Source: Tubulanus polymorphus (lineage: Eukaryota; Nemertea; Palaeonemertea; Tubulaniformes; Tubulanidae). From it: 64,000 nt of DNA. The translations under genes were made by a program, and so were the position numbers. The DNA lies in contig NC_134035.1 in the NCBI RefSeq assembly GCF_964204645.1, forward strand, positions 8,804,501-8,868,500. Reading direction: 5' to 3'. Every line of letters begins with the position of its first letter. Positions within the stretch are counted from its first letter, which is position 1. Positions 17,801-63,239 of the stretch are shown piece after piece. The notes beneath the pieces were generated by a model. The model had not been told where the DNA came from and did not search any database. It saw only the letters and a list, made by a program, of their open reading frames with translations.

Positions 17801-20800
17801 GAACCCACAGTGCGGCAATTGTTAGTGGAACCCACAGTGCGGCGACTGTTAGTCGTACCCACAGTGCGGCGACTGTTAGTCGTACCCACAGTGCAGTGAC
17901 TGTTAGTTCTTAGTTCATTATTTGTGAAGTGGTATGTGTTAGTGTGTTAGAGCATTCGTCTCTGACCAAAGCCAGGTCCTTGGGCAAGACACATATCCTC
18001 ATTGCCTATCCCCACCCAGGAGCAAATAGGACCTGGCTTGAAACACAGTTACAGAAGGGGTAATAAAACCAATGTCACTTCTCTACAGGGAGAGATGACT
18101 GATACACAGTTACAGATATAGACTGACTAGTGGTAATAATAGGGGCATAAACGGAAGCGATCAAACTGTATCGTAACAGATTCATTGGCTATATAAATAT
18201 CAATTATTATCATATTCCCGCCGACAGATTGGAAAAACTTTGTCGAGCGTATTTTTTTCTATTATCTATTGATATCCCCCGCTATGCGCGACAGTTCTGG
18301 TTACACACGCTACCTTAACGGTCACGTATTCGATTATTCGCGATTGGACGGAAATAAATGCGAAGTCGCAAACGCGGACACCTCGTACGCGGAGAGCTGT
18401 TCGAAACCGGGGGGGGGGGGGGGGGCGCGCGAGGTGTTCGCTACACGTCTGCCGTTCGAGACGTATACGTACGTACATCGACCGTTCGGATGACTTATCG
18501 CCCCGCGGGAGCGCCGACCTGATTAGAATTCATCAGCCGCGATATCGAGCATATCTCGCGTATCCAGGTTGTAACGGTGTACATCTCGCAGCGCGCGCCG
18601 GAGAGAACAGCGCAACGTATCACCGCCGCCGCTGCTGCCGAGGCTGCTGCATCATCCGATGAGACTATAATTGATGACTGAAAGGCGTTCGTCGGGAGTC
18701 GTTAGTCCCGCGATCTCATACTGCGTGTAGAGAAATTTATTATTCTCCTATTCGTATTACATTTAAGAATGACGCTAAGCAATAGAGTAACCGTTGATCT
18801 ATACGACTCTTGTGACGTCACCAGACATTGCCTTTGCAATCTTCGAAAATTGAGCAGCCCCCTCCCCGCAGATCCAGAGGCTTATTTTTACTTGTTTTGA
18901 TCCCGAAAGGGCACTTTGATGAGTAAAAAGGCAATATTATTACTCCTGCACTGAAATGCACCAATAATCTTTGTTGACAAATTGAAATGGGACAATATAG
19001 TACAATAACCACACTCAAACGTGGTGAACGGATAATAAGATAAAAACCCACTATGTACAATGAAAAGAATTCTAAAATCGAGAATTTGTCGCTAAAATGT
19101 AATAAACACCTGACGATGATCTCAAATGTCATGTTTATTATTACATTTTAGAAATAATTTCTCGATTTTAAAATTCTTTTAATTGTACGTAGTAGGTTTT
19201 TATCTTGAAATAGGACGCTCAAAAAGATTCGATGGACTTATACAAGTCTCACAAGTCCCCCGTGGTTCCGCCCCTGGTAATGGCTATTATAGAAAGTAGG
19301 CATAGATATCCTCGAGATCCCGGAAGAGGTGATCGTACAAAGGAGCTGAGCTCTACGTCGCGTTGATTGATATATCGATAAATACATTGTTTGTTTTTGT
19401 TTTTCGTTTCAGTTGATCGGTTTAATGGTGCTCAGCGTCGGAGTGTGGTTACGTCTGGATCCGCAGACGATGCAGTTCGTCAACGCTCTCGACGGATTAC
19501 AGATCTATTATATCGGTACATACGTTTTAATTGGTGCCGGTGGATTAATGACGATTGTCGGTTTCGTCGGCTGCTGCGGTGCGTTCCAAGAATCTGCTTG
19601 TATGCTCGGAACTGTAAGTATATACACTGTCGGTCGCGGCGTAACGACTCAGAAGTGACGGTGAAATTACGCGCACTCACCGGGGATCGAACCCGGGTCT
19701 CGTACGGAGACAGCAAACGTGCTAACCAGCAGACCAATAGAACTAGTCCACTTGGCCAGTGGTTATACCGCTTGTCCTATATCAGGCACCAGATAACTGA
19801 TAGTGAAATTACGCGCACTCACCGGGGATCGAACCTGGGTCTCGAATGTAGACAGCAAGTGTGCTAACCAGCAGACCAATAGAACTAGTCCACTTGGCCA
19901 GTGGTTATACAGCTTGTCCTATATCAGACAGCAAACGTGCTAACCAGCAGACCGAAAGAACTAGTCCACTTGGCCAGTGGTTATACAGCTTGTCCTATAT
20001 CAGGCACCAGATAACTGATAGTGAAATTACGCGCACTCACCGGGGATCAAACCCGGGTCTTGAATGTAGACAGCAAGCATGCTAACCAGTAGACCAATAG
20101 AACTAGTCCACTTGGCCAGTGGTTATACAGCTTGTCCTATATCAGACAGCAAACGTGCTAACCAGCAGACCAATAGAACTAGTCCACTTGGCCGTGGTTA
20201 TACAGCTTGTCCTATATCAGGCACCAGATAACTGATAGTGAAATTACGCGCACTCACCGGGGATCAAACCCGGGTCTCGAATGTAGACAGCAAGCGTGCT
20301 AACCAGTAGACCAAAAGAACTAGTCCACTTGGCCAGTGGTTATACAGCTTGTCCTCTATCATACAACAGCAGCTCATTAACTACGTAAGATCCTTAGCCG
20401 TTCTGATAATTGCCGATATGAAGTCCCTCGATGTCTGCACTTCCTACAGTCCGAATCTCGTTTGATATCATTTCCGACATTCGTTTTGTAATTGAGTCTC
20501 GAAGCTTGCTAATCTACGTGTGATCCTTATACTCACTAATTGCTACATCCCTACATATCCTATTAGCTTCGCGGCGACTCTGCTCAAAACTCCTGAGCAA
20601 ATTCATGTTTGTTTTTGCATTTCACTTCTCAATTTTGTATTAGGCTATATTTCACCGAGATGTCCGAATGATGCTTGAAGATCGAGGATGCAAAAAATCC
20701 CGCAATATATTTTTTTTCAAACATTGAAAATGAACTAACTTTAACTCAAGAGTTAACTCTAACTCACAACTGTGGAACTGGGTCCAGGTTTATAAAATCG

Positions 20801-41800: not shown

Positions 41801-44800
41801 TTCATCGCGGATATCGTGATCTTAAAATAGGGATTGAACCTGTTATTTAATTGATCGGTAGATTTCGTTTGATTTTTTGATTCGGTGTCCCTTTTACAAA
41901 CCAACCACGCCAGCTGGTAGTGAAACAGGGTTTAATTTTGAAATTGGAAATCGAAGTACATTATAGTTGTTGTGTGATTGGCAGTTGAAGGAATTTACTG
42001 ATTTTTGACATTATTACCGCGCCTATAAACCATGATGTTCATGTTTTTGAAGAGGATATCAATTTGTACCGAAATATTTTGTTGAATTTCGTTTATTTCA
42101 CAAAATCGCATGCTCCTTTCGGGAACTCTTTCCTGCAATCTTGCACAACAGGACAGAATTAGCAGATATCTTTGGTTCGGCACGAGTCCGGAGATTTTTG
42201 GAATGAATAATATCAGTGTTTTCAATAAGAAATTAACAAGCCAGGTCCCTTTGAAAAACAGGAGGGTCCTATAATATGTCACAGTCCCGGAAATGAAAGC
42301 TGGTTTGAAAAAACAGGCGGGTCCTTTACAAATGACAGACGGGTTTGGGACCTGGGACCTGGCTCTTATATGACTAACTGCTAGGTGCTTCCTACTAAAA
42401 TTTGGGAAATATTACAGAAAAACAAGTGTGATGAATTGATCGACTATATGACCCAGTAAATATACATGAAACTGATATGAAACTTTTTCAAAATTCTGCC
42501 TTTTTGTCACGAATGAATAAACCTCGTTATATAAACATATGCAACCAATGATTTAAGCCTCAACACACGTGCGAATACAATTACATATAGTCGTAAAACA
42601 TTTTTTCATTTTCGATTCAACAAAAACATCTGTGCCTCGCGTAGCCAGTCCGTCAAACGTATACCATTACTACACGTCGTTATCAACAGTAGATTGTATT
42701 GAAATTTTTCCGATTTAAAGATTTATCGACTAAATTCAAAGAAGACGCTTTCATTGATTTCGAGATTCACTGCGGGCTGTATTATTCCGTGTGTACGTAT
42801 TCGATAGATCTTGTATTTTAGAACGCCACTTTCCGCCCGTTTACAAATCCCCCGAGTTTTCCCTGATGTGATTACACAAAATTCCGTGACTGAATCGGAG
42901 AAATTTCTACGTTTAAAATCCATTCATTTTTCATCGAATCACATACTGATAAAGACACACATGGTCAAATAGCATTATCCGCGAATTCTTAGGGTTTTCC
43001 ATATTTTTGGTGAAATTCGTCAAATTCTCTGAGTTTTCCCTGATTTTTTCTAGATTTTCTGATTCCGTGAGTTTTTCAGGCCAGTGGTCGCAAAACATAT
43101 CACCATCCTCACTCTCCTGTTTGACTTGATGAGACAGGGGCGGATCTAGGGTCTGATTCAGGGTGGGGTACATCCCCAAAATAGGGCATATCATCATTAT
43201 TAAAAGGACACCCCCGAAAGAAAGCTCTGAAAACCCTCTAACTCGTGGTTGGGTAATACGGACAAGAAGCTAATGAATTAAAACTTTTGTAGGTAGCAAC
43301 ATGTTAAGGGGGGTACGCACCCTCTGTACCCTCCCCTCGGTTCCGCCCCTGCGAGAAATTACTGTTTTCTATAAGTGGCTGAATATGTTTTCGAACGTGG
43401 CGTATTATTTCATGTATCCCGTACATCGCGTGTGCGCCGGTGTACAATAAATTCCCCGACTAATTCATGTTGAAAAAAATCGCTCGTAACATCTCGCGCC
43501 GGGGAAACACCTGAGCTAACCGTTAGCGTACTGCGTTCTTTATTACTGTTTTATCGAATCGTAATCATCCAGCTACAACGTATATATACACGTATATTCA
43601 TAGTCACCGAATACACGAACATCTGATTCCCGCTCCGAGGAATTACGGGTCTAGATTTTTTTTTTTCTCGTTTCAGATTGCTAAGAGTATTAACGACGGG
43701 TTTAAAAGGAGTGTCCAGAAAGACTACGGCGACCTCGGCCGCACTCAGTCGATAGACTACGTGCAACGAACGGTACGCTTCTGCCGGGGTATACTCGGTA
43801 GTGTCCTTCATATTTTTGACCACTTGTAAATCATCTTTTGAAAAGATTATCAACATTACTAGTATATTACGATCTCAACAGCTGCACCTGAATGGTTGGA
43901 TGATCGAGTTTTTGAAATGGTTTAATTTCATGGTTCCCACAGAACAGGGAAATTGGGAAAAACTTGGGAATTTTGAAATAATAATTCCTGGTTTGGAAAT
44001 ATTTGGGAATTTGAAAAATTCTCCTCATATCAGGGAAATATTTGGGAAATTCATTACATTTCACGTATTGCATTTGCCAAGGGCAACTTTCTTCAGCAGT
44101 TTCCCTTGAAAATCGCCTTTATCAACCAGTCACCGCTAAAATGTTGAGTGAAGCATGACGATATGTGTTCATTTGCATTTGGGAAAATTGAAAAATCACC
44201 CATGAAATACTTGGGAAAAACTTGGGAATTTTGAATTCATATAACTGTGGGAACCATGTTATTTGCTAGAAATAAAGATGTGACATTTCCAGATCTCTAT
44301 CCCTTTCAAACAAATATATAAGATCTGTGACCTTTTCATATAATCGCTTGAAACGTTGAATCCTTTTCTGTCTCCTTCTGTCCTGATATGTATGTTATCT
44401 TCTTTTTCAAATGTCCCCAGTTGAAATGCTATGAAACGCCGCATCGTTTGTCTCTACTTCTGCCCTGAAATATGAGAGTTACGTTCGTGTTTTTTTTTTC
44501 AAATGTCTTCAGTTGGAATGTTGCGGAGGCGAAAGTCCGTACGACTATCCAGCGTCGGATTGGTACAAAAACAACAACAACGGCCGTCTGCCGAAAACGT
44601 GCTGTAAGAAAGACGTCATGCATTTACAAGGTCAGCTAGAGGAGGCTTGTGACATGACCGGATTAGTCGACGAGAAACATTTAACGCCGGCCGCCCATCA
44701 AGTGGTAAGCTATAGCCCAGGTTTCACAGTTTTGAGTTACAGTTAACTCGGAGTTAAGATTCATTTTCAATGAGTTAACTCCAGTCAAATCTTTATGCAG

Positions 44801-47101
44801 AACTGTGGAACTGGGTCTTGATTAATGTCTGTCTTAAGGTAAAATCCTGAAGCCAGTTTTTTAGACTTGTGACACATTAGACTTGAGAAACATTAAACGC
44901 TGGCCACTCATCAAGTGGTAAGCTGTAGCCCAGGTTCCACAGTTTTGAGTTACAGTTAACTCGGAGTTAAGATAAGTCCGTTTTCAATGAGTTAAGTCTT
45001 AGTCAAATCTTTACACAGAACTGTGAAACTGGGTCCTGATTAATGTCTGTCTTAAGGTAAAATCCTGAAGCCAGTTTTTTTAGACTTCTTATGCCCCCCC
45101 CCCCCCCGGCACAACTTTAGTTGAGAGGGGGCATATAGATTTACTCACGTCTGAATACGCCACCGCCGCGAGGGGTGTTAACAGCCTAGAGGCTTTTGTC
45201 AACCCATTGTTATCAAACTCGGTACACGAGTAGGGCATCACCTCGGGCAGAACCCTAGCTAATAACAATGGCCACCAGAGGGCTGACATGACTAAATGAT
45301 GGTTGAGGATTTAGCCCTAGGGGTAACTTTGATACCCAGTCAATGAAGGTGGGCCTGGTTGAGGATTTATCACTAGGGATTACTTTGATACCCAGGCTAT
45401 GAAATCCAGCCCAGGGCTCTTCGTCTCTGTTAAAGACTAGTCAAGTCAAATTTGAATGAAGCTCACCATTTCCTTACTTCTTTGTTGACTTTTGACTCAA
45501 GAGTTTCAATTAGCACGTTTTTATTGTTGTTTTTTTTTTACCTTAAGAGCCCAAAAACAGTGGAAAGCTGGTTCCTGATCAGTTTTAGGATTAGGAATTT
45601 TTTGGGGGTATTTCGAGGTATTTATTTTGTACATTGGTGAACCCGGTTCGTACTGAAGTTAGCCTTAGGGCTGAACCATAACCTTGGGGCTTCGCACTGT
45701 GCTATCAATAAGTTGCAGATTTCTAGAGAAATTGAAAATGTTCCCCAAGGGTTGTAGGATCCCCGCTGTGTGGAAAATTCAATAATGCCAGAATGTTTTT
45801 TTTTTTTGTGTGTAGAGTGTAGAGCCTCTGTGACTCGAAGGCATGCCAAAATTGCCCAAGTCAGCATTGTCTAAATCTTTTTTCCAATGATTTGATCTCT
45901 CATTACCGGCGTATTTCAGGGATGTGGTCCGAAATTAATCGAGTTTTTCCAGGAGCACTTGCACATAATGATAGGAGTGAGTTTAGGAGTAGCTTCAATA
46001 CAGGTGAGCAGAATGACGCGTAACCTCCCTTTTCTTTATAGCGACAAAAACCGACGCGCTTCTAAGGTGTGGCTCGAAACCATAAATATCCGAGTATATG
46101 GACATCGTTGTAACAGGATACCATAAAAATATCTAATTCACAAATGAATATGAGATACACCTGTAGAGCATCGCTGAGATGTCGCTTGTTTGTAATTGGG
46201 ATGAAAATAGAAGAAATCTTCTTCAGTGTTCCATGTAACAGCTTTCCCTCGATGATTGATATCTATCCCATATTACTGATTTAGACGTGTTTCTTCAGTT
46301 TGCGGCAGTCTCCTATTTTCTAAAACTACCGTGTTGTCAAATTTCAATCCAGCATATACACTGTGTTTTATATATCCTGGCAGACGACCTAGAAAAAGTA
46401 AAGCCTGGCGGTGCGCACGTGGGCGATGTTTTCGAGCAATTCTCAAGTAGAGTTGCCATGTATGTGTGTGCAGCTGGAGATGCCAAGCAACTCACGAACT
46501 AGCCAATGAGTGAGCGAATAATTATCATGTGATACTTCCAAATATGGCGACTTGCGGGGCAGAGCGCGACCATATTGACAAGTCACATGATATAGATATT
46601 TGCCCGGAAAAATAATCGCCTCTCCAGTGATAGCACACGGGAGATGCCAAGCACTCGATTGCTCAATAGACTACCCCAAAATCGATACAGTCGGGACCTC
46701 GAAATCGTTTTTTAACTTATTAGAAAAAAACTGAATAAGAAACAAGAAATAACAAATAAGAAAAGTCTGGGTAGTGTTAAGGATAGAAATTTGCTTACAA
46801 AACCAATGAATTAATAGTTTACCGAGATAAACTGTACCGATTTAGTAGGAGTCAATTGTAATAAGGATATGAAAGCGATGAAGCAGATGCTTTCTCGAAA
46901 TTGATCTCCTTTAAAATTCTTGAAAACTCTTTATATCCAGGAATAACTGATCCGTAGCGTCCATGTACTAATGTTTGATTTTGTCACTATTTTCAGGTGC
47001 TCGGACTCATATTCTCGATCGTTTTGTGTTGCGCGTTGTGCAAAGACAATTCGTACTCGTACGACAAACACGGCGAGTATATGTACAGTAAGGCCAATTA
47101 G
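4735..47101 (+). CDS. Tetraspanin, complete, 7 coding exons, 272 residues
   Basis: Coding exons: 4735-4800, 19413-19613, 37293-37367, 43677-43772, 44513-44704, 45920-46003 and 46997-47101. All introns are phase 0 with consensus GT-AG ends, and the joined frame has no stop before TAG at 47099-47101. The product has four membrane segments (about residues 11-34, 50-74, 85-108, 220-247), a small loop, and a large extracellular loop (about 112-215) with six cysteines: C149 and C150 in the CCG signature, then C176, C177, C192 and C212. The motif GFVGCCGAFQES after segment 2 is typical. Known role: tetraspanins organise membrane protein microdomains at the cell surface and in vesicles. Subfamily is uncertain. 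Introns 1 to 3 are unusually long (14.6, 17.7, 6.3 kb) and full of repeats. Confidence 0.93.
4977..5354. mobile_element. Palindromic MITE (GGGGCCAGTTGCACAGTC family), interrupted
   Basis: Same family as the intact 24254-24393 and 39175-39316 copies. It is split by a 215-bp element at 5057-5271. The outer parts still match the inverted ends (ggggccagttgcacag on the left, catgactatgcaatcg on the right). Confidence 0.65.
5057..5271. mobile_element. 215-bp non-autonomous DNA transposon with 9-bp target duplication
   Basis: Inverted ends of about 24 bp start GGTAAAAGT and match with two differences. The 9-bp word GATGGGCTG lies directly on both sides (5048-5056 and 5272-5280). A Mutator-like or Merlin-like origin fits an 8-9 bp duplication, but no transposase is present. 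It sits inside the palindromic MITE 4977-5354 and is therefore younger. A nearby repeat of the target word makes the exact borders slightly ambiguous. Confidence 0.7.
5355..9180. other. Tetraspanin intron 1, first part: no gene seen
   Basis: No exon-like open frame with splice sites on either strand. Positions 6440-6620 and 7320-7770 carry many degenerate units of a dispersed repeat built on gtcagggaaa and gggaattttc. Positions 6900-8700 are richer in CpG (words such as cgcgcg), with short open frames that look fortuitous. Confidence 0.5.
7320..7770. repeat. Degenerate tandem repeat of the gtcagggaaa type
   Basis: Roughly 35-75 bp sub-units contain agtcagggaaata, ttttctttaaaaag and ccttcgaaaaagcc repeatedly. 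The same words recur at 6440-6620, 20930-21090, 42840-43090 and 59540-59650, so this is a dispersed family that has also expanded locally. Confidence 0.6.
9190..9478. mobile_element. pogo/mariner-like MITE carrying a nested palindromic MITE
   Basis: On the minus strand it starts TACAGCAGAACCCGCTTAAT after a TA and contains atccggatt words. A shorter related copy is at 61641-61795. Starting with CAG after TA is the Tc1/mariner (pogo) habit, so this assignment is inferred from termini only. The MITE 9241-9370 lies inside it. Confidence 0.45.
9241..9370. mobile_element. Palindromic MITE (GGCCCAGTTTCACGAAC family)
   Basis: Begins ggcccagtttcac and ends in the inverse, gtgaaactgggcc. A related copy is at 32391-32500. 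Non-coding. Confidence 0.6.
9548..9810. repeat. Dispersed repeat shared with 18864-19277
   Basis: Both copies carry, in order, gcggatcca/gcagatcca, gggcactttgatg, a cctgcactg word and gacttg-acaagtctcacaagtc. The 18864 copy ends ggttccgcccctgg, so the element has GGGGCGGA-type inverted ends. Likely a MITE family. Confidence 0.5.
10484..11017. mobile_element. mariner-like MITE split by a piggyBac-like MITE
   Basis: The left end tacagtaaacttcgactaaa is matched in inverted form on the right around tatcgatttagtttgagtc. Its middle is interrupted at 10651-10942. An uninterrupted relative at 46665-46865 shares atagaaatttgcttacaaaa and gatatgaaagcgatg. Confidence 0.55.
10651..10942. mobile_element. 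piggyBac-like MITE, copy B (292 bp)
   Basis: TTAACCCTTTCAGTG at the left and CACTGAAAGGGTTAA at the right give near-perfect inverted ends. The flanking host element has an unfilled counterpart at 46777-46780 where a single TTAA precedes ggatagaaatttgc, confirming TTAA duplication on insertion. Confidence 0.8.
11509..12001. repeat. Degenerate copies of the GGCCAGTTGCACAGTC palindromic family
   Basis: At least two decayed copies (11509-11640 and about 11690-12001) contain the words gaccagtcttaag, gctatagaact and cttaagtctaagtc. The second is expanded by unrelated sequence including a TA microsatellite at 11857-11884. Confidence 0.45.
11857..11884. repeat. TA dinucleotide microsatellite
   Basis: About 14 uninterrupted TA units in tetraspanin intron 1. 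Confidence 0.9.
12738..13018. mobile_element. piggyBac-like MITE, copy C, degenerate
   Basis: Internal words caggtgctgccatct and gtgctggagataa match the other copies. The left end is damaged (ttaaaaccttt). The right end reads gtactgaaagggtta, near a TTAA. Confidence 0.55.
13410..13690. mobile_element. GGCCCGGGCC-rich MITE, copy 1
   Basis: Contains accaggcccgagccaaat, aaatgattgcgtttg and gtgattgcggct, as in the copies at 35545-35871 and 40836-41147. This one is decayed at the left. Confidence 0.5.
14429..14496. repeat. CT-rich simple sequence
   Basis: Nearly pure CTCTCTCC-type sequence on the plus strand; overlapping open frames here are compositional artefacts. Confidence 0.85.
15654..15765. 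mobile_element. Palindromic MITE (GGGCCCGGTTTTATAGACTGG family)
   Basis: Left end ggcccggttttatggactgg, right end the inverse ccagtctataaaactgggtcc, with a near-palindromic centre of ttaaccc and gggttaa words. Other copies: 32507-32614, 33410-33482, 60524-60632, 62573-62683. Confidence 0.65.
16458..16473. repeat. Short GA microsatellite
   Basis: About eight GA units just before the large minisatellite. Confidence 0.8.
16554..17910. repeat. 27-bp minisatellite, about 50 units
   Basis: The unit is cagtgcggcgactgttag followed by tcgaaccca. Because 27 is a multiple of three and lacks stops in several frames, the array is open for 454 codons on plus (9-residue unit THSAATVSR) and 421 on minus. 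Each standard unit holds CGACTgttAGTCG, a 5-bp hairpin with a 3-base loop. Variant units (gagtg, gccgtg, gcaac) form higher-order blocks: a five-unit 135-bp block repeats at 16726-16860 and 16861-16995, and another multi-unit block recurs around 17459 and 17647. It lies in tetraspanin intron 1. A protein product is possible but unsupported. Confidence 0.92.
17930..18130 (+). repeat. SINE-like element with a tRNA-like head and a conserved 3' domain
   Basis: The start (gtgtgttagagcattcgtct) resembles the A-box half of a tRNA. It is followed by ggtccttgggcaagacacat, cattgcctatccccacccag and gcaaataggacctggc. This order recalls a 3' SINE domain widespread in marine invertebrates (from memory, the Nin-DC type). 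No B box is evident between the halves, so the copy may be truncated. Confidence 0.45.
18409..18425. repeat. Poly-G run
   Basis: About 16 consecutive G on the plus strand, a likely assembly and replication trouble spot. Confidence 0.85.
18864..19277. mobile_element. MITE-like repeat with a nested fold-back
   Basis: Same family as 9548-9810. It ends gtggttccgcccctgg and begins near ccgcagatccagagg. A separate palindrome at 19037-19206 lies inside it. Confidence 0.5.
19037..19206. mobile_element. Small fold-back element (about 75-bp arms)
   Basis: The left arm begins aagataaaaacccactatg and the right arm is its inverse, ending gtaggtttttatctt. Both contain attctaaaatcgagaa-type words. Non-coding. 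Confidence 0.65.
19413..19613 (+). CDS. Tetraspanin coding exon 2
   Basis: Encodes 67 residues: the end of membrane segment 1, the small extracellular loop, segment 2, and the short intracellular loop with the hallmark GFVGCCGAFQES. Acceptor tttcgtttcag, donor gtaagt. Confidence 0.93.
19661..20350 (-). repeat. Tandem array of a tRNA-derived SINE
   Basis: Read on the minus strand each unit has an A-box-like CTGGCCAAGTGGACTAG and a B-box CCCGGGTTCGATCCCCGG, the two internal RNA polymerase III promoter elements. Unit starts (gtgaaattacgcgcactcac) are at 19661, 19803, 20021 and 20238. The spacing is 142, then 218 and 217, because the A-box part (about 75 bp) is duplicated within the later units. 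The array begins 48 bp after tetraspanin exon 2, antisense to the gene. Another copy, broken by a MITE, is at 28734-29165. Confidence 0.75.
20400..21760. other. Tetraspanin intron 2: no gene seen
   Basis: Contains a fragment of the ACTGTGGAACTGGGTCC family at 20735-20790, degenerate gtcagggaa repeats at 20930-21090, and CpG-rich sequence at 21230-21560. The 134-codon open frame in that CpG-rich part has no domain signal. Confidence 0.45.
21762..22120. repeat. 74-bp tandem repeat, about 4.5 units
   Basis: Unit begins gtccacttgtaacaacgtaa and includes gcaaaactgtttgttctg and atacatgggttcatcc. The first three units are nearly identical; the last ones are diverged. Confidence 0.85.
22593..22672. 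repeat. CT-rich simple sequence
   Basis: Homopyrimidine-biased tract; three overlapping open frames here arise from composition. Confidence 0.85.
22800..23490. repeat. Imperfect tandem repeat of about 125 bp
   Basis: The word cataggtagaaaggtcctgt or close variants recurs at 23155, 23283 and 23405, with gatgtcctgtcatccat and aggcctgaccac in between. An older diverged unit starts near 22805. Confidence 0.7.
24254..24735. mobile_element. Palindromic MITE GGGGCCAGTTGCACAGTC, one intact and two decayed copies in tandem
   Basis: 24254-24393 is a clean 140-bp copy running from ggggccagttgcacagtc to its inverse gactatgcaaccggcccc. 24394-24570 and 24571-24735 are decayed copies with tagaactt and gaccggtctta words. 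The best-matching relative is 39175-39316. Confidence 0.65.
25095..25119. repeat. TA microsatellite
   Basis: About 12 TA units. Confidence 0.85.
25363..25662. repeat. 30-bp minisatellite built from 15-bp half units
   Basis: Unit cagtaatacgggtttctg then taatacgtgtat, about ten units with variants (gggtttatgtgattcagg). The half unit gives an open frame of pentapeptides VSVIR and VYVIQ, again because 15 is a multiple of three. Confidence 0.85.
25670..27296. other. Tetraspanin intron 2: no gene seen
   Basis: Open frames up to 118 codons on both strands overlap each other without domain signals. Composition is moderately CpG-rich around 25700-26100. No repeat recognised by eye. Confidence 0.4.
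27297..28325. repeat. 1-kb polypyrimidine tract (C/T-rich plus strand)
   Basis: Almost entirely C and T with scattered A, built on ctccaccctctcct and variants, with long internal duplications (for example 27861-28080 against 28081-28270). The 375-codon plus frame and the minus frames rich in E, R and G are translation of simple sequence. Such mirror-rich tracts can adopt triplex structure (inference). Confidence 0.92.
28734..29165 (-). repeat. tRNA-derived SINE copy interrupted by a MITE
   Basis: 28734-28793 matches the B-box half (gcactcaccggggatcgaac) and 29097-29165 the A-box half (gatagaactagtgaactt, ttatacagcttgt) of the SINE arrayed at 19661-20350. The MITE at 28794-29096 lies between them. 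Confidence 0.7.
28794..29096. mobile_element. MITE with AAGGGCGGATCCAGG ends
   Basis: 303 bp. Left end aagggcggatccagg, right end its inverse cctaaatccgccctt. An opposite-orientation copy is at 34701-35004, and a copy lacking its right end is at 48055-48290. All carry a block around tttgaaagggcgga and ccaccagaacc. The open frames inside are conserved only because the DNA is a repeat. Confidence 0.75.
29893..30415. repeat. CT-rich tract, 0.5 kb
   Basis: Built on tctctccctcc and ctatctccctccatctct, with a recurring block of about 65 bp (ctctctcttctttcact). The 264-codon open frame across it is compositional. Confidence 0.9.
30420..32390. other. Tetraspanin intron 2: no gene seen
   Basis: No open frame has domain or splice support. 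31130-31780 has lower CpG and may be an old transposon remnant, but I could not match it to anything else in the window. Confidence 0.35.
32391..32614. mobile_element. Two adjacent palindromic MITEs
   Basis: 32391-32500 runs from ggtccagtttcacaaa to its inverse tttgtgaaactgggccc (family of 9241-9370). 32507-32614 belongs to the tttataGACTGG family (ending taccagtcgataaaacc). Confidence 0.55.
33371..33752. mobile_element. piggyBac-like MITE, copy D, with a nested palindromic MITE
   Basis: Ends TTAACCCTTTGACTAGTC and ttgaaaaggttaa. Internal words acaccgcagcgcggtgta and ggtgtactagc match copies A to C. It is interrupted at 33410-33482 by a copy of the GGTTTTATAGACTGG family: copy A reads agtgctggagat where this copy reads agtgctgg, insert, tggagat. 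Confidence 0.7.
33885..33922. repeat. GA/GAAA microsatellite
   Basis: agagagaaagagagagaaag then aaagaaag units. Confidence 0.9.
34517..34700. repeat. 31-bp minisatellite, about 6 units
   Basis: Unit ccccacctgactccagcggg then tgtgatacagt. One more unit continues at 35005-35046 beyond the inserted MITE, so the array was split. Confidence 0.9.
34701..35004. mobile_element. MITE inserted in the 31-bp minisatellite
   Basis: Left end cagggccggatttagg, right end cctagatccgccctta. The word TGTGA from the minisatellite unit is repeated on both sides (34696-34700 and 35005-35009), suggesting a 5-bp target duplication. Same family as 28794-29096 in opposite orientation. Confidence 0.75.
35545..35871. 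mobile_element. GGCCCGGGCC-rich MITE, copy 2 (most complete)
   Basis: 327 bp. Imperfect inverted ends of about 40 bp: left agccacgatcacgcaagc, right the inverse cgtgtgatcgcggct, both leading into tttggcccgggcc. Non-coding. Confidence 0.65.
36783..37024. repeat. Probable MITE with GGATCCAGG end
   Basis: Starts ggagtggatccaggaat and ends ctataaatccagccct, a decayed version of the GGGGCGGATCCAGG inverted ends seen elsewhere. Confidence 0.4.
37146..37216 (-). other. tRNA-like sequence (pseudogene or SINE head)
   Basis: On the minus strand attggataaggcatttgatt resembles a D-arm/A box and gtgggtttgaatcccga a B box at tRNA-like spacing, but I could not pair a full acceptor stem. Probably a SINE or dead tRNA. 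Confidence 0.35.
37293..37367 (+). CDS. Tetraspanin coding exon 3
   Basis: Encodes 25 residues, FFIFLFLILCGEISAGVLAF and onward: membrane segment 3. Acceptor ctcgttgcag, donor gtaagt. Confidence 0.9.
38440..38920. repeat. Dispersed repeat shared with 42180-42370
   Basis: Both places carry gaaaaacaggagggtcc, ataatatgtcac, aaacaggcgggtcctttac and gggacctgggacctggctctta, over about 190 bp. Unclassified. Confidence 0.6.
39175..39316. mobile_element. Palindromic MITE GGGGCCAGTTGCACAGTC, intact 142-bp copy
   Basis: Left ggggccagttgcacagtcat, right its inverse atgactatgcaactggcccc. The arms run almost to the centre (agattagctatagaac). Near-identical to 24254-24393. Confidence 0.75.
40836..41147. 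mobile_element. GGCCCGGGCC-rich MITE, copy 3
   Basis: Shares gagcatttttggcc, aaaaacgtcggaccaggcc, gcgagcgctctcta-like words and a gatcacggct right end with 35545-35871. Confidence 0.55.
42180..42370. repeat. Dispersed repeat, second copy of the 38440 family
   Basis: Strong similarity by eye to 38476-38640, including tttcaataagaaattaacaa and ggacctgggacctggc. Confidence 0.6.
42840..43100. repeat. Degenerate tcaggg/ttttccctga repeat
   Basis: Inverse orientation of the family at 7320-7770: cgagttttccctgatgtg, gagttttccctgatttttt and ttccgtgagtttttcaggcc. Confidence 0.45.
43137..43352. mobile_element. 216-bp MITE with CAGGGGCGGA ends
   Basis: Left acaggggcggatctaggg, right ggttccgcccctgc. No coding capacity. 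Confidence 0.6.
43677..43772 (+). CDS. Tetraspanin coding exon 4
   Basis: Encodes 32 residues (IAKSINDGFKRSVQKDYGDL and onward), the first part of the large extracellular loop. Acceptor tctcgtttcag, donor gtacgc. Confidence 0.85.
44513..44704 (+). CDS. Tetraspanin coding exon 5
   Basis: Encodes 64 residues starting LECCGGESPYDY, with the CCG signature, a second Cys pair (TCC) and a fifth Cys (EEAC) of the large loop. Donor gtaagc. The last part of the exon with its donor is duplicated 213 bp downstream. Confidence 0.93.
44680..45085. repeat. 213-bp tandem duplication containing the end of tetraspanin exon 5
   Basis: gagaaacatttaacgccggc to agtggtaagctatagccca in copy 1 (donor at 44705) is repeated as gagaaacattaaacgctggc to agtggtaagctgtagccca in copy 2 (donor at about 44918). 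Both continue through a palindromic ACTGTGGAACTGGGTC MITE (44727-44817 and 44934-45031) and the text ttaaggtaaaatcctgaagc. Confidence 0.85.
45090..45440. other. Tetraspanin intron 5 repeat-like stretch
   Basis: Begins with a poly-C run (45095-45109) and then CpG-bearing sequence different from the AT-rich surroundings, with ttgaggatttagccctaggg repeated in variant form at 45303 and 45360. Unclassified repeat. Confidence 0.4.
45920..46003 (+). CDS. Tetraspanin coding exon 6
   Basis: Encodes 28 residues from GCGPKLIEFF, with the sixth loop cysteine, to the first half of membrane segment 4. Acceptor gtatttcag, donor gtgagc. Confidence 0.9.
46665..46865. mobile_element. mariner-like MITE, unfilled relative of 10484-11017
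   Basis: Carries aaaatcgatacagtcgggac at the left and gtaccgatttagtaggagtc at the right. At 46777-46780 a lone TTAA stands where the relative at 10651 received a piggyBac-like MITE. Confidence 0.55.
46997..47101 (+). CDS. Tetraspanin coding exon 7 and stop
   Basis: Encodes 34 residues: the rest of membrane segment 4 (VLGLIFSIVLCCALC) and a short Tyr-rich cytoplasmic tail ending GEYMYSKAN. A possible first polyadenylation signal AATAAA is at 47212-47217; a later one is at 49573-49578. Confidence 0.92.
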   Translation: MLGLIFSIVLCCALCKDNSYSYDKHGEYMYSKAN

Positions 47102-55011: not shown

Positions 55012-55995
55012 CTAGACGACATAAAGATCAGTTGCTATCTGATTCCAAAAGTTGAAATAGGCATGATCACCAAAACGTTGGACCCACATGAATTCGGCTA
55101 GGTAATCGGGTATCATCGCGCGATTTGACGGACCAGCCATCGCTTTAAATTTCGCCTTGGCTCGCTGCCACATCGCCTCCACACGGTTTGTCGTTACGGC
55201 TGTGGCTGGGTCGACGAAGTTGTTATGGTTGACTGTGCCGTGTTGGTACCCCAGCTGGCCAATCTGATTATATGCCTGCCACATATCAGACCATATGGTG
55301 GAGCCGGGACGAATCCATCGTTGTATGATTGGCAACAGCGTGGCAGCATCTCTCCTGGGTACCGGTACAAGGAAACCTTGTTTCGTCTCTGCCTCGTAGC
55401 CACCGAATATCCACTGCTCCGCCACGATTCGTCCCTGGTTATATTTTCGCCGAGCAAAAAGAGATTCGTCTATTTCTACCAGTCTACCTGGTCCACCAAG
55501 CTGTGTCGGATGATTTACGAAGTAGGACACACAGACATCGCGGCAGAACTGATTCCAATCGACGATGGTATGCTCCGACTGTATTTCAAGCTCGTGCATG
55601 GTGTCGGCAACACTCATGCCACGGCTTGAACCAGCACTTCGGCTCCAGATGTAGGTGAGCCCCAGCAGCTGCCACAAGTGAAGATGCGACTTCTCGAAAA
55701 AACTCCCACGTCGAATACTAAAAACTCGCTTGCATCGTCGTGCTGTACATCTCCAAGCCACTCCGTCGACGTAACGCGCCATACCCTGTTCTCGGCATTG
55801 GCCTCCGCAGTTTGGACACACCATATTATTCGCCAGCAGGCCATGCTGTCTACACCAGCCGATCGTGTGTTCTCTGTCATCCTTGAAATTCGCGCCGATT
55901 TGAATCAACGAAACAAAGTCGAACTCTGCCAAATCTGGAACGCGGGCCATCTTCTCGCAGAAATAAGACGTTATGAACGAATTGAGCAGACCCAT
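55012..55995 (-). CDS. Merlin (IS1595/ISXO2-like) DDE transposase, intact, 327 residues
   Basis: Single uninterrupted frame. An N-terminal zinc ribbon is suggested by C60, C63, C83 and C88 (CPNC then RCTARRC). The DDE nuclease domain follows, with D176 in VEIDESLFARRKYNQGR, D237 in TIWSDMW and E273 in TNRVEAMW as candidate catalytic residues, plus the family-typical WIFGGYEAET. Known role: cuts and rejoins the element ends bound at the terminal repeats. The start used is the first ATG; Met16 (MARVPDLAEF) is an alternative giving 312 residues. The gene is more GC-rich than the terminal repeats around it. No frameshift or stop. Confidence 0.93.
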   Translation of the reverse strand: MGLLNSFITSYFCEKMARVPDLAEFDFVSLIQIGANFKDDREHTIGWCRQHGLLANNMVCPNCGGQCREQGMARYVDGVAWRCTARRCKRVFSIRRGSFFEKSHLHLWQLLGLTYIWSRSAGSSRGMSVADTMHELEIQSEHTIVDWNQFCRDVCVSYFVNHPTQLGGPGRLVEIDESLFARRKYNQGRIVAEQWIFGGYEAETKQGFLVPVPRRDAATLLPIIQRWIRPGSTIWSDMWQAYNQIGQLGYQHGTVNHNNFVDPATAVTTNRVEAMWQRAKAKFKAMAGPSNRAMIPDYLAEFMWVQRFGDHAYFNFWNQIATDLYVV

Positions 55996-56416
55996 GACGA
56001 CTTATATACTATTCACCCGTGAGAAAATCCAGAAGTCTCACGGCCACCAGCACCGGGATTGCCTCATGTAAAGTCTTTGATCCTGGCTTGATTGACATGG
56101 GAACCAGTAACCCTTCCGATTTTTGTCACGTACGCAGAAGAAAATACATTCAAATTAAAAAATAAAATGCTCTAATTGCTGCAGAAAAAGAATAAACAAG
56201 TAGATGATACAAATTATAGCTTTGTTTATATTTTTCAAATGTATATTACATATGTTCTATTTTTAAGAATCTGGTCACAGTTTGAAAATATTATAAACTT
56301 TATTTAACCGATCCCAATTAGCAAACGATGCGTGGGCGGGTTGCAGCGCTTGACATGTGTCAATCGGCGCGCGTCGCACGTGTCCGTTCGGTGACCGTAG
56401 CCGGAGCGCTCCATAC

Positions 56417-57152: not shown

Positions 57153-57380
57153 ATAATTACATTCACTTTTGTGCTAATTTGGCATTATTGTACTCCAGTA
57201 AATGCAATATTGCCAACCTTGTCAGCATGCAAAATCGGATATTTTCACAATCCACAATTGCCGTTTGGTATTAGCCTACCAACAATCAAGAAGTTTACAA
57301 ACTAATATGATTTAAAAAAGGTTCGATTCCCGATTTTTCACTGATTTCATAGAATCAACGCTGCCAATCCCCGGACCGCG

Positions 57381-57714
57381 ATGGATCAAGAGGCACCTAC
57401 CAAAATCAAGCGACGAGCATCAGACGCAAAATGGAGAGCAAACATCGCTCATTGCTACGACAGTTTGAAAAAGATAATACCAACACCGAATGATTACCCG
57501 CGAAAGAAAATACCAAAGGTAGGTTACGAGTTGACCAAAAGTATCATGAGTATGTCGAACAAGTCAGTTCCACTGTTGACTGTTCCCAGGTGGAATTGGA
57601 GTGTAATTTTTTATACAAACTTTATTCCTTTTTTTTAGGTTTTAGTTTTGAAAGAATGCAACCAACACCTGAATTTCCTGGAACAAACTATCACTTTTCT
57701 ACTCGACGTCTGTG
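57381..57714 (+). CDS. Exons 1-2 of the bHLH-HMG gene: bHLH region
   Basis: Exon 1 (57381-57518) holds the basic region, helix 1 and the loop; exon 2 (57639-57714) holds helix 2. The intron falls in the loop/helix 2 border. The basic region lacks the glutamate that contacts the E-box CANNTG in classical bHLH proteins, so DNA binding may be altered. The ATG sits in ccgcgATGG, a favourable start context. Confidence 0.82.
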
Positions 57715-60700
57715 GTAGGTTTTCATTTCACGTGGGTTTGATTGTATTTAATGCGGACTCGTCCTTGAAATTTTCTCCCTTAAAGAAAACTACTCATCAT
57801 AACCAAGAACGATAATCATTTGGCTATCGTTTTTTTTTTAAATTTAGATCAAAGTAAATCAGATTTACAAAAATGCGTCACGCTCGATTCTCTGAAGGAT
57901 GAATTCGCCTGCGCCGAACAGCACAGAAAAGAAAAGTATGTCTCGTTTCTGTCTTCATTTCAGTGTTCTCCATACAGGCTATGCAAGAATTTGAAGAGGC
58001 TGCATTCATTGTTAAATGTATGGCATCATGGGTGCTAAACTAGTTAAGGCTTCCGATCTCCCAAAAAATACAGAAAATTAAACTAAATTTTGATATAGGA
58101 CACCTAAATCTTCTATTTTTCACATTAGCTCGATATATTTCAAAGTAATTAAATCAGCATTGATAGAATATTGATATCCACTCTCTGGTAGAATGTTTAC
58201 GGTCGTATTTCCAGAGTGAAAGAAGGCAAAACTACTTGCAATAAACACTTGGCTTTTTTCAACGGGTCGAATATTTCGAGTTGTTGTGATTCGGAGCCGT
58301 CGTATCAGTTACCGAGTCCGTTTCTGAAATCGAGTGGACTTCAACTGTTACCCGAATGGTAGGTGTATTATAACTGCGTTGAATGAAGATCTCGATTGAA
58401 TCGGAAATTCCATTCCGCATTTCAACGAGATTTTACTAAAATTTCTCACTTTCAGTTTGGTTAACAGGAACCAGTTCTACAGTTTTGACTTTGGCAGGTT
58501 TTGATTGGTCTCTTTCGATTCTGGAATTCTCTTACAATGCATTCGTTTCGACCAGAATACGCTCTACCTATTCCAGAAATGCTTTATTTGTTAATGAGGC
58601 TGGTAGGGAGGTGGTACTCCACAATTACAAATCCTAAACCGGAATACGTTCTATCAAAACCTGTCTTAGTTACAATCTGTTCACTTTCAATGAGTTCAGT
58701 AATCTAAAATAGTACCGGTACCTAGAACAGTGAAAATATTGAAAATGAACTATTCTCAACTCAAAGAGTCTTAACTCACAACGGTGGAATCTGCAGTTGT
58801 GAGTTGAACTGAACTGGAAGTTAGAACCAGTTCGCTTTCAATGAGTTTGCAGAAACCAGGATCCAGTTCCACAGTCGTGAGTTAGAGTTAACTCTGGGTT
58901 AAAATGAGTTCATTTCCAATGATTTAAGTCAAATCTTAACTCAGAACTGTGGAACTGGGTCCAGTTCATTAGTTATGAGTTACTTGGTCCTTTTTCAATG
59001 GGTAAACTTTTCAATCTAAACACCCGGTTAACAGTTGAAAATATTGAAAATGATCTCAAACTCATGAGTTTAAGTCACAGAGTGACGATTCTTGTTTATC
59101 TATTCTTGCAGGATGTTTCATCGAATGCGAGAAGATTTACAAATCGAACTGAACGATCGAATGAAACGTCGTCGCGACGTCGCGATCGATTCAATCATTC
59201 GCTACAATTCGGCCGCGTATCCGAGAACCAAAATACGAAAACTAACCCCGTTTACCGAACCGATCGCGAAGAAAGAACCCGATGAACCGGTGAATTCTTC
59301 GAGTGGAACCGCGTTAAAAACGAACAGTTTAACGATGCCGAGCGCTGATCGACCGTTGAATGCGGCGGAGGCTGAAATCGCCGCTCGCGCGTTGGATTTT
59401 GAAACTCCCGCGAAACAGTGTTCCTCGATGACTGAACCTGTAAGTACAAACGAGGAAAATTTGTTACGAATTAATTATATGACGCCTTGAAAAGAATGTA
59501 GGATGTTTAAGGAAAAGTTTATGTGGCAATAGGACCGGATAGCCACTTTCCTGGACATCAAGGAAAAGTCTGGGAATTTTCTTCTAAAAAGTCCGGGAAT
59601 ATTGGAAAATAGCTAAAAAAATCAGGGAAAATGCGGAAAATTTGTTGAGATTGCTAGCTCGTATTATTGTATAGCCTTATGAATTGAATTTGTTTCTAAA
59701 TAGGAAGAGAATCGTGACTTGGTAATAACAAGCACTCCTAACGATAACGCTTCAGTCAATCGGCAATCTGCATTTCGGGTAAGAATTTTTGCACGCTCTC
59801 CGCTCGAAAGAAAATTAACGAATCGTCAAGTATGCTTTATTTATTATTACGATGTTTAGATTCAAGCCGCATCACCGGGATTTACGCCGATTCCTCGACT
59901 GCCTCGAACTCCGAACAGTCGATCGGAATTTATCGCGAAGGTCGACGAAAGCGCGCATTGCTCCGAGTTAATGAAGGGTTTCGATGAAATCAGGTACGAT
60001 CGCGGTCAGTCAAATCGGTTGCCTGTTAGTCTCCGGATCAAGTTTCACAGTTGTGAGTTTGAATACACTCATTTCATTTTCAATGAGTGAACTCTGAGCA
60101 AAATCTTAACTCGTAAGCGTGGAACTTGAGCAAAATCTTAACTCGTAAGCGTGGAACTGGGTGCTGAGTTTAACGCATACCGTAATTTTGTCTTGTTGCA
60201 TAATTCTAGCTCGAAGATGCCGAGAACTCCAAAACGCCGAAGACTGAATATCGAACCTAGTCGTCGAGTTCGTAGGCGTCTGCTGTTAACAACCTACGAC
60301 AGGTATTTGATCGATGATATTTTCTCGATCGGTTTATTCGTCGAATTTATTGAAGGAAATGCCTTAAGATTGATAAACGTGTCTATTGCAGCCCCACAAA
60401 GGTGAAAGAGCCGGTCGAATTGAGGAAAGAGCATCCCAAATGTAGAATTAGACTAGACCGGTGCGTATATTTTAGTATCTGATTCCACAATTCTGGATTA
60501 GATTGCATCTTAAAACGTCAGAAACTGGTTCTATAGAACTGGCGTTATCATTAAATCATGGGTTAACTCAATTGAAAATGAATTTAGTTAGCCCCTGCAT
60601 CAAAGGTAATACCAGTCGATAAAACCGGGCCCAGGAATGAATTTAATTGTCAAGAGTTAACCTACTTTGGAACTTGGTCCTTGTTCTTTCTTCTGAGAAC

Positions 60701-62924
60701 TTACTTATTGGTTAATAGATTAATGAATGAACGCAATGATAAGTCTTGTTTTTAATTTCAATCTGCTGCTGTAGATTGTATCCTGAAGAACAAATGAAAA
60801 CGAAGTCTAGCTGTGAAACGCTAGTGAGTCCGTGTAAACATGTCGATAACGTCATCAGTTCGTCTTCTATCAGTGGGTAAGTACCATGGCACAGTTCCAT
60901 CGAACCTTCAGTAATACCTTGGCTAGTTGAGAAAAAGATGGAGACACGTTTAGCACCTATCTGTAGAGCCAGTTTCCTAGTTCTGCGCCGCCGGAAGCAA
61001 GTTCATCATATCCGACAGCCTAGGCGCTTATCGTGCAAAGATACGCACCTATTTTTTTCAAGGGGTTCGGGGGTCTTCGGAGAAATTTTTTAAGATATTT
61101 TTCAAAGGGTTACATTTCGTAGGCTCTGGGGCTATTTGGGACGATAGTTTTCCGGTATCCTGATTCAGGTTGATTGCGTCACTTCGTTTATGAATGTTTT
61201 AGACGCAGCTGTCATAGTCGATTAGAGATATGTTTGAAAAAATCACGATCGGCAAAATTATGAACTTATCAAAAAAATTATGAAATTATCTAATTGTGAA
61301 CATGGTTCTAATACGGTTACCGATAACACTTTCCCATTCGCTATTTTCAATAAAAACGTTCCGTGGTTTCCTCTTCAGTTATGCCGCCTTCCATCGACAA
61401 GTGTCCGAACAACTGCGAATCTATCTACCGCCCGAGAAGGTCAATTCTGAATCGATGAACAACACGATATTAGAAGTTTGGAAACAACTTCCCGACGATC
61501 AGAGGAACGCGATGGTCGCCATGGCGATGATGGGCGAATTGAATAAATCGTTGAGCAAAGATTTGGACGATATACGCTTGGAACCGATTTGCGATGACGA
61601 TTTTGTCGATGTAACCGCGCGATGTAAGTTGAAATTAAAGTAGAGTCCGCTTAATTCGGAACGTTCGGGACCAACAAAATTTATCCGGTTTACGGGAAAT
61701 CCGGATTAAAAAGTCATTTTCTTGTGCGGTATATTTGATGAACAAATGGACTGCAAATATTGTCCGGATTAAGCCAATCCGGATTTATTATATAGAGATT
61801 TTAGAGAAATTCATTAATAACACCCCTAAGTACTATCTGCTAATTCCATTAGAATAGAATTAGAATTTCTTAGTGCAGCTAGATAATTGTACTCTCCATT
61901 TTTCCCGGTTTTTTTCAGTCCAGACTTCACATGTGTTCAGTGTTTCACCTGAGACATTTTTATTGAAATTGATCTACAAACGCTAGACTTTAGACATTTT
62001 ATCAGTAAATTTTTTAGAAGCGATTGTTGACACTTGTACTTTACAATACAATGTTCGACTGTCTGAAGTGCAGGCTCAGGGCGGCAAATGATCAGATTTT
62101 TGTTTACAATTAAGTTTTCCCTTTTCCATGAAGTTCCGCATTCATTTTCAGCTAATGAAATAGACGCGGATGTGTTGTGCGCGGTGAATGATTTAATGAA
62201 TGGTACCGTTCCGAACCTTCACGACGCTTTACCCCCTCAAACCGACGGACAACATACGTCGCCACCAAAATTGAATCTCAGTACTCCCGATTTCAAGAAT
62301 CTCGATTTGTCAAATATCAATGAGGTTTGTTTATAGCGACGACGCTTATGAGGATTTTCTTGTTGAGATTTCTATTTTCGTTACTGACCAATGTATTCCA
62401 CTTTCAGTCATTGCCATGGGTATCCGGATTCGAAATGGATTTGTTCAAACATATGTTTGATGAGAAAACTCTAGAAGCATCTTCTCCGATTGCTCTGACA
62501 CTAGTAAGTAAAATACAGTGGCCGCTTTTATAGAAGAGAACATCTTTAATCCCGAGGTTAAAGATGTTCCCTGGGCCTGGTTTTATAGACTGGTATAACC
62601 TTTAACCCGGGGGTTAACTCAATTGATCATGAATTGAGTTAGCCCTCGGGTTAAAGGTAATACCAGTCTAACCAACCGGGCCCTTACTCTTGGGTTAGTT
62701 TATACCAGTCTACAAAACTGGCCCCATAATCCCTCACTAGTCTGATATGGGGTTAAGACACAGTTTCTCAGTGTTTAGGCCCCTCCTTACGATGGTGTGA
62801 AATATACGAATATTTGTCTATTTTTCAGGCTGACGCCGATGATTGGCAGTTGATCAATCCTCTTGATCTCAGTGTTCCCGTCAATAAACGGCTATCATTG
62901 AACCTCCCGCTGCATGAAGAGTAA
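57381..62924 (+). CDS. bHLH and HMG-box-like nuclear protein, MEIOSIN/STRA8-like, 14 exons, 618 residues
   Basis: Coding exons: 57381-57518, 57639-57714, 57848-57935, 58215-58358, 59112-59439, 59704-59778, 59860-59993, 60210-60302, 60392-60460, 60775-60876, 61379-61623, 62152-62324, 62408-62503, 62829-62924. Every junction has GT-AG ends and the phases join without a stop (1,857 nt). Residues 8-71 form a bHLH region: basic KIKRRASDAKWR, helix 1 to LKKIIP, a proline-bearing loop, helix 2 VLVLKECNQHLNFLEQTI. Residues about 416-468 look like an HMG box (YAAFHRQVSEQLRIY, then EVWKQLPDDQRNAM around W450). Basic stretches (PRTPKRRRLN) could be nuclear signals; the C-terminus is acidic and leucine-rich. 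bHLH plus HMG in one protein is the known layout of MEIOSIN, partner of STRA8 in switching on meiosis. Orthology is inferred from architecture; another divergent bHLH factor is the alternative. Confidence 0.85.
58790..58960. mobile_element. Palindromic ACTGTGGAACTGGGTCC-family copies in intron 4
   Basis: Two overlapping decayed copies; the clearer runs ggatccagttccacagtc to gaactgtggaactgggtcc (58859-58962). Confidence 0.55.
60037..60155. mobile_element. ACTGTGGAACTGGGTCC-family palindromic MITE in intron 7
   Basis: agtttcacagttgtgagttt at the left, then a tandemly repeated taactcgtaagcgtggaact at the right. Related to 44727-44817, 44934-45031 and 58790-58960. Confidence 0.5.
60524..60632. 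mobile_element. GGTTTTATAGACTGG-family MITE in intron 9
   Basis: actggttctatagaactggc at the left; taccagtcgataaaaccggg at the right. Confidence 0.55.
61379..61623 (+). CDS. Exon 11 of the bHLH-HMG gene: HMG-box-like region
   Basis: Encodes about 82 residues: the HMG-like segment with the FH/W core pattern, then KSLSKDLDDIRLEPICDDDF. It fits the last two helices of an HMG box best; helix 1 is short. This assignment is the least certain part of the gene. Confidence 0.7.
61641..61795. mobile_element. pogo/mariner-like MITE in intron 11
   Basis: Contains agtccgcttaattcggaac, ggaaatccggattaaaa and attaagccaatccggatt, as in 9190-9478. It ends near a TATATA stretch. Confidence 0.45.
62573..62725. 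mobile_element. GGTTTTATAGACTGG-family palindromic MITE in intron 13
   Basis: Intact arms ggcctggttttatagactgg and the inverse around taccagtctaaccaaccggg (62573-62683), followed by an extra right-end fragment ending ctacaaaactggcccc. Confidence 0.65.
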
Positions 62925-63233
62925 CCAAACTATGCTTCAAACCCAGAGCAGCGCATTTAATCGATTCCAGTTAAATCTTTGTTTGTTTTGATCATTTTCG
63001 AAATCTTTATACGTTGTTTTCATTTTGTTTAAGTATTCTATACTAGAAAGTTTTTTCATGTTTATTGTATCACTATTTAAATTGTTAAAGTTTAGTGTTG
63101 CACAACGGTTAATTTATTAGAATAATGAAAGTTCTGAGTTTATTTCTGTCTGATTTTTGGGCGAATCGAAAGTTTAAAGTACTTGCCAGAAAACCTTGTA
63201 AATGATGTTTACTTAGATGTTGTTGATTGATTA

Positions 63234-63239
63234 AATAAA
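63234..63239 (+). terminator. Likely polyadenylation signal of the bHLH-HMG gene
   Basis: AATAAA lies 310 nt after the stop codon, in AT-rich sequence, with no further coding signal in between. Confidence 0.55.

Follow-up and report, generated by a model that had tools for sequence, protein, structure and literature searches.

STRA8 and MEIOSIN switch mammalian germ cells into meiosis. Each of the two mammalian proteins is described with (putative) bHLH and HMG domains, the two act in concert, and they share the site CNCCTCAG, which is not an E-box (PMC9604137). STRA8 has been called a vertebrate-specific and relatively recent meiotic trigger (PMC4729902), and an amphioxus Stra8 ortholog was reported in 2013 (PMC3769385). 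Within the excerpts found in the open-licence literature, amphioxus is the sole invertebrate for which an ortholog is stated (PMC3769385), and no statement of a STRA8 or MEIOSIN member in a protostome was found. The excerpts of three mollusc papers (PMC13072017, PMC7804246, PMC9449974) contain stra8 only in mentions of the mammalian gene, an abbreviation list and references; those of a sea urchin paper (PMC12824366) contain STRA8 only as a vertebrate gene and in a reference; and those of PMC11879061 (Schistosoma), PMC13321354, PMC9178102, PMC11059408 and PMC3668142 contain no invertebrate STRA8 or MEIOSIN. This negative result covers open-licence papers among the matches listed and does not prove that such members are absent. 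STRA8 or MEIOSIN names may well occur in the automatic annotation of other invertebrate genomes.

The window, that is the whole stretch of 64,000 nucleotides analysed here, is C11:8804501-8868500 within the 267.8 Mb genome of Tubulanus polymorphus (77 contigs). On its forward strand, at 57381-62924, lies a gene of 14 exons that in kinship and build is quite probably an intact and seemingly single-copy STRA8/MEIOSIN-family member of a spiralian protostome. The kinship is supported because the gene combines a STRA8-type basic region with the order of a bHLH followed by an HMG-like domain. The original prediction of an orthologue or close relative is partly supported in this way, as regards kinship, with MEIOSIN compared by its description.

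The gene was rebuilt exon by exon, and the resulting chain bore out the claim that 14 exons join in phase to give 618 residues. It has a single start at 57381, with an in-frame stop at 57342 ahead of the ATG, and a single stop at 62922-62924. All 13 introns (81 to 753 bases) are of the GT-AG type and all phases join. No exon is interrupted by a stop in the frame used. Counting both unused frames, each exon holds 3 to 13 stops; exon 2 is also open in one of these two. The G + C content is 0.457 in the exons versus 0.368 in the introns, and base composition by codon position gave a chi2 of 40.2 in the exons versus 3.3 in introns joined to the same length (6 df). A pseudogene reading was rejected in view of the absence of an internal stop.

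Exon 1 (57381-57518, amino acids 1-46) begins with the start codon and encodes the basic region, the first helix and the loop of the bHLH, and exon 2 (57639-57714, amino acids 47-72) contains helix 2; both rest on the splice model, as do all the following exons, and on matches to the Pfam models HLH and bHLH_STRA8. These are exon 3 (57848-57935, amino acids 72-101), exon 4 (58215-58358, amino acids 101-149), exon 5 (59112-59439, amino acids 149-258, for which a fold was also predicted), exon 6 (59704-59778, amino acids 259-283), exon 7 (59860-59993, amino acids 284-328), the Arg/Lys-rich exon 8 (60210-60302, amino acids 328-359), exon 9 (60392-60460, amino acids 359-382), exon 10 (60775-60876, amino acids 382-416), exon 11 with the HMG-box-like domain (61379-61623, amino acids 416-497, also resting on structure prediction) and exon 12 (62152-62324, amino acids 498-555). 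Exon 13 (62408-62503, amino acids 556-587) is acidic and hydrophobic and is a possible activation region, and exon 14 (62829-62924, amino acids 588-618) encodes an acidic/hydrophobic C-terminus and includes the stop codon. All of these lie on the forward strand, as does a putative poly(A) signal at 63230-63239, an overlapping ATTAAA/AATAAA that is one among several downstream consensus matches.

Several repeats are located within the introns. A palindrome in intron 13 (62573-62683) consists of two 55-base arms and resembles a short inverted-repeat element (MITE); its later portion recurs at 60538-60632 in intron 9 as a 78% copy. Diverged repeats with TTCAATGAGTT were found at 58660-58960 (intron 4) and 60050-60165 (intron 7), and TTCAATGAGTT recurs in a 213-base tandem at 44672-45087 of the window.

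In a profile search of all 618 residues the Pfam family HLH was matched above its cut-off (22.2 bits, cut-off 20.7), in agreement with a bHLH at residues 8-71. One further family came up at E<=10, bHLH_STRA8, below its own cut-off (15.1 bits, cut-off 25), and no HMG domain was called. When residues 1-81 were searched alone, HLH scored 25.4 bits and bHLH_STRA8 19.7 bits (E 9.3e-4, residues 8-69), and bHLH_INO2 ranked after it (E 0.12). Among specific bHLH models, as distinct from the general HLH model, bHLH_STRA8 (PF23175) fits the gene best; its curated cut-off, reached neither by the bHLH alone nor by the whole protein, is a tool threshold and not a biological feature. Ordinary bHLHs encoded in this genome served as controls: 28 were drawn from the 33 strongest of 54 rows of a genome search. 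HLH matched all 28 and bHLH_STRA8 matched one at E<=10 (E 0.045); bHLH_NCOA and bHLH_NPAS4 each matched two (best 1e-4 and 6.1e-4, respectively) and bHLH_INO2 three (best 0.0014). Such special models touch ordinary bHLHs at similar E-values, and therefore the E of 9.3e-4 by itself proves little. An NCBIfam search with the gene returned nothing relevant.

For direct comparison, we used a provisional mouse STRA8 sequence under 400 residues long. Its first 141 residues matched bHLH_STRA8 with 175.9 bits over all 80 positions of the model, so its bHLH can be trusted; beyond the bHLH its letters are provisional, and STRA8 was the only family member compared. Over the 13 positions of the basic region, aligned without gaps, the gene and provisional STRA8 score 21, whereas with the 28 controls the gene scores at most 5 and provisional STRA8 at most 4. 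The two are reciprocal best basic regions among the 30 sequences, and both have the pattern S-x-A-[KR]-x-R-A, which is present in none of the 28 controls. At the position of the E-box glutamate the same ungapped alignment places Asp in the gene, so the basic region does lack the usual glutamate, as had been claimed. Aligned locally, residues 1-170 and the provisional STRA8 N-terminus score 71, and none of 1000 shuffles got as high.

Over the whole bHLH, with provisional STRA8 as query the gene scores 64 versus at most 49 for the 28 controls; with the gene as query, L012, a Twist-like bHLH of the same genome, scores 70 and provisional STRA8 64. The nearest entries in a PDB sequence search were TAL1 (E 0.012) and then Twist1 (E 0.26). 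In a tree of 30 bHLH rows the gene and provisional STRA8 paired at only 88/83, both on very long branches of 10 changes per column, which may attract each other, and the pair was placed beside L012 with weak support.

The original prediction had also put an HMG-like segment near residues 416-468; three helices in an HMG arrangement were recovered there in a low-confidence single-sequence model, and no sequence profile recognised them. Folded alone, exon 11 has predicted helices at 418-431, 439-452 and 455-480 (2-15, 23-36 and 39-64 in the numbering of the model), with block pLDDT of 73-85 for the first 50 model residues and less further on; the mean pLDDT of five models ran from 69.9 (best) down to 47.0. 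Among 25 Foldseek rows, HMG boxes took the first 7 places and numbered 14 in total, with E-values of 2.4 or worse. When the model was compared with 30 chains by VIA-align, the 13 best of the 16 entries listed were all HMG boxes, with Z of 6.0-7.5 (rmsd 3.3 to 12 A, identity 9-19%), values to be read with the program's warning that Z under 8 can reflect a common arrangement. The next entry, a CUT domain, had a Z of 3.3, and it is from this gap between the HMG boxes and the next fold that an HMG arrangement of exon 11 is argued. The model leans towards exon 11 carrying an HMG-box-like domain C-terminal to the bHLH. Exon 5 was modelled with a long helix at its start, a short one near its end and otherwise no regular structure, and judged from these predicted helices it has no HMG-like bundle, which serves at most as a partial control for the result with exon 11.

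At the level of sequence, no Pfam HMG match at E<=10 was obtained with the whole protein or its parts, exon 11 was absent among the 53 matches listed in a PF00505 profile search of the genome, and a PDB sequence search with the HMG-like segment gave no match at E<=10. Alignment of exon 11 with 12 HMG boxes of the same genome by hhalign gave a probability of 7.5% (E 0.0047) over 20 columns, and a Trp of exon 11 lines up with the Trp conserved in HMG boxes. Exon 11 has the three-helix arrangement (Z 6.0-7.5) in common with HMG-box proteins such as Sox, HMGB and BAF57, and has no PF00505 match. It fits the HMG-like stretch of provisional STRA8 weakly, with a score of 37, reached by 26 of 1000 shuffles; with other borders of that stretch it is 34 (67 of 2000 shuffles) and out of register. 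The same stretch scores 39 with the part of the gene that holds the bHLH (windows starting at residues 1-46), and exon 11 scores up to 46 with L033, an ordinary HMG box of the same genome, above its score with provisional STRA8. A Pfam scan of the provisional STRA8 stretch likewise gave no HMG match, so the missing profile match of exon 11 is no argument against kinship.

Taken part by part, STRA8 shares with the gene the S-x-A-[KR]-x-R-A basic region, the HLH and, as modelled, a later HMG-like stretch, in the same order. It differs in being shorter (under 400 residues in the provisional mouse form versus 618), in a long Glu-rich stretch of the provisional sequence that is missing from the gene, and in an HMG-like part hardly alike in sequence. 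MEIOSIN (BHMG1) resembles the gene in having a bHLH and an HMG domain in one protein, a likeness drawn from its description in PMC9604137.

No second copy of the gene was found in the 268-Mb genome by a whole-protein search, in which all 14 rows fell on this gene. The HMG-like exon as query gave one other weak row (E 3.99), PF23175 one row with a stop inside (E 1.66) and provisional STRA8 one row (E 0.96), none of which was taken as a further copy or family member. The genome searches with PF23175 and provisional STRA8, and the one that supplied the bHLH controls, did not list this gene itself, its bHLH being split by an intron, and for that reason they would also overlook a second copy if it is split and diverged. 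Synteny with neighbours of the human genes was not seen: of two such neighbours, the Nup192/NUP205 type has its exons on C1 and symplekin lies on C2, so neither shares C11 with this gene.

Within the 64-kb window, retinoic acid (RA)-type DR5 elements with up to 1 mismatch were not enriched (2 versus 3.58 expected), and the CNCCTCAG motif occurred 3 times versus 3.59 expected, with none near the gene; absence of motifs within one window of this size says little. The window has 183 open frames of at least 70 codons; 10 were scanned with Pfam, and among these a transposase alone passed the cut-off. It is a 329-residue open frame on the reverse strand just upstream of the gene (55015-56001), ISXO2-like (DDE_Tnp_IS1595, E 1.2e-20), and perhaps belongs to a Merlin/IS1595-type DNA transposon. 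At 16560-17907 a 27-base unit is repeated about 50 times in an array with 89% matches; one frame per strand is open there for 440 codons or more, which is possible because the unit is divisible by 3. A tandem of 142- and 218-base units at 19661-20365 includes a tRNA T-arm-like stretch, GGGGATCGAACCCGGG, and maybe derives from a tRNA-derived SINE; ARAGORN found no tRNA in the window.

A search of the assembly for mitochondrial COX1 gave no match, and the lineage was read from Hox genes. At E<=1e-12 a homeodomain query of the genome listed 15 rows. Ten of these form a cluster of Hox genes at C6:5318228-5634747, on the same strand over 316 kb and in collinear order. From high to low coordinate we take this order to be lab, pb, Hox3, Dfd, Scr, Lox5, Antp, Lox4, Lox2 and Post2 (-like). 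The peptide KLNGP follows the Lox5-like homeodomain, and IKELN follows those of the Lox2- and Lox4-like genes. Lox5-, Lox4- and Lox2-like genes with these peptides are signatures of spiralian (lophotrochozoan) protostomes, to which molluscs and annelids belong.

The likeliest product of the gene would be a regulator that dimerises through its HLH and does not read the E-box, since its parts come in the order described for STRA8 and MEIOSIN and it, too, lacks the glutamate that reads the E-box. Its predicted layout is an N-terminal bHLH whose basic region lacks the E-box-reading residues, a long linker that contains TP/SP motifs and is basic in places, the HMG-box-like domain and an acidic/hydrophobic tail. 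Such a protein would form a dimer through the HLH, with itself or with another HLH protein; its STRA8-type basic region, its HMG-like domain or both would then contact non-E-box promoter DNA, and in premeiotic germ cells the tail would raise the transcription of genes for meiosis. We infer in this way a nuclear, dimeric, DNA-binding and activating protein with a germline, meiotic function. A role in meiotic entry is argued from kinship, and we would expect it in somewhat over half of the cases in which the kinship holds. A more far-reaching proposal, which we put forward tentatively and think rather less likely to be right than wrong, is that STRA8 and MEIOSIN together correspond to this one gene, which never duplicated, that a homodimeric bHLH-HMG activator of meiotic entry existed in the bilaterian ancestor, and that the mammalian pair is a later division of labour.

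Other explanations of the locus differ in how much of this they would leave standing. The exon chain is a splice-site model that runs across introns of up to 753 bases with repeats inside them, and it might in principle fuse two genes or represent a decaying pseudogene; we consider this very improbable in view of GT-AG borders in 13 of 13 introns, fitting frames and splice sites, the lack of internal stops, the codon-position composition bias, and one start with one stop. It is also unlikely, though less remotely so, that the gene is a fast-evolving Twist/TAL-like group A bHLH that lost its basic-region residues and became a dominant Id/EMC-like partner, with exon 11 a chance helical bundle. 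Helix 1 and helix 2 of such proteins do resemble those of the gene, the whole-bHLH score is higher with L012 (70) than with STRA8 (64), and TAL1 and Twist1 are best in PDB by sequence; their basic region, however, is unlike that of the gene, which scores 21 with STRA8 and at most 5 with controls, and bHLH_STRA8 is the best specific bHLH model. That no profile called an HMG box would suit a chance bundle, but the 13 best structural rows are all HMG boxes, with a gap to the next. Twist/TAL-type group A bHLH proteins are not known to have an HMG-like domain.

The remaining alternative overlaps with the explanation we favour: the protein would belong to the STRA8/MEIOSIN family and run another germline or somatic programme, not the start of meiosis. 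This is possible, and we hold it to be the case in a minority of outcomes. Salmon without stra8 still make sperm (PMC8087537) and several fish have no stra8 gene (PMC8087537, PMC4870732), so the role of STRA8 is not fixed. On the other hand, expression of mouse STRA8 and MEIOSIN and of fish stra8 is germline or mainly gonadal as described in PMC9604137 and PMC4870732, and the unenriched RA-type and CNCCTCAG motifs, which would fit another programme, carry little weight when missing from one 64-kb window.

Returning to a STRA8/MEIOSIN-family gene as the preferred reading, none of the refuting outcomes named with the original prediction clearly arose in the sequence and structure comparisons made here. 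Its claim that the switch would be placed in invertebrates was already partly in print with amphioxus Stra8 (PMC3769385), and what is added here is a spiralian candidate. This is a real gene and probably a new member of the family where one paper says none should exist. If so, a spiralian member would move the STRA8/MEIOSIN family back to the bilaterian ancestor, making it older than the vertebrates, and the age of the animal meiotic-entry switch would become directly testable in a non-chordate.
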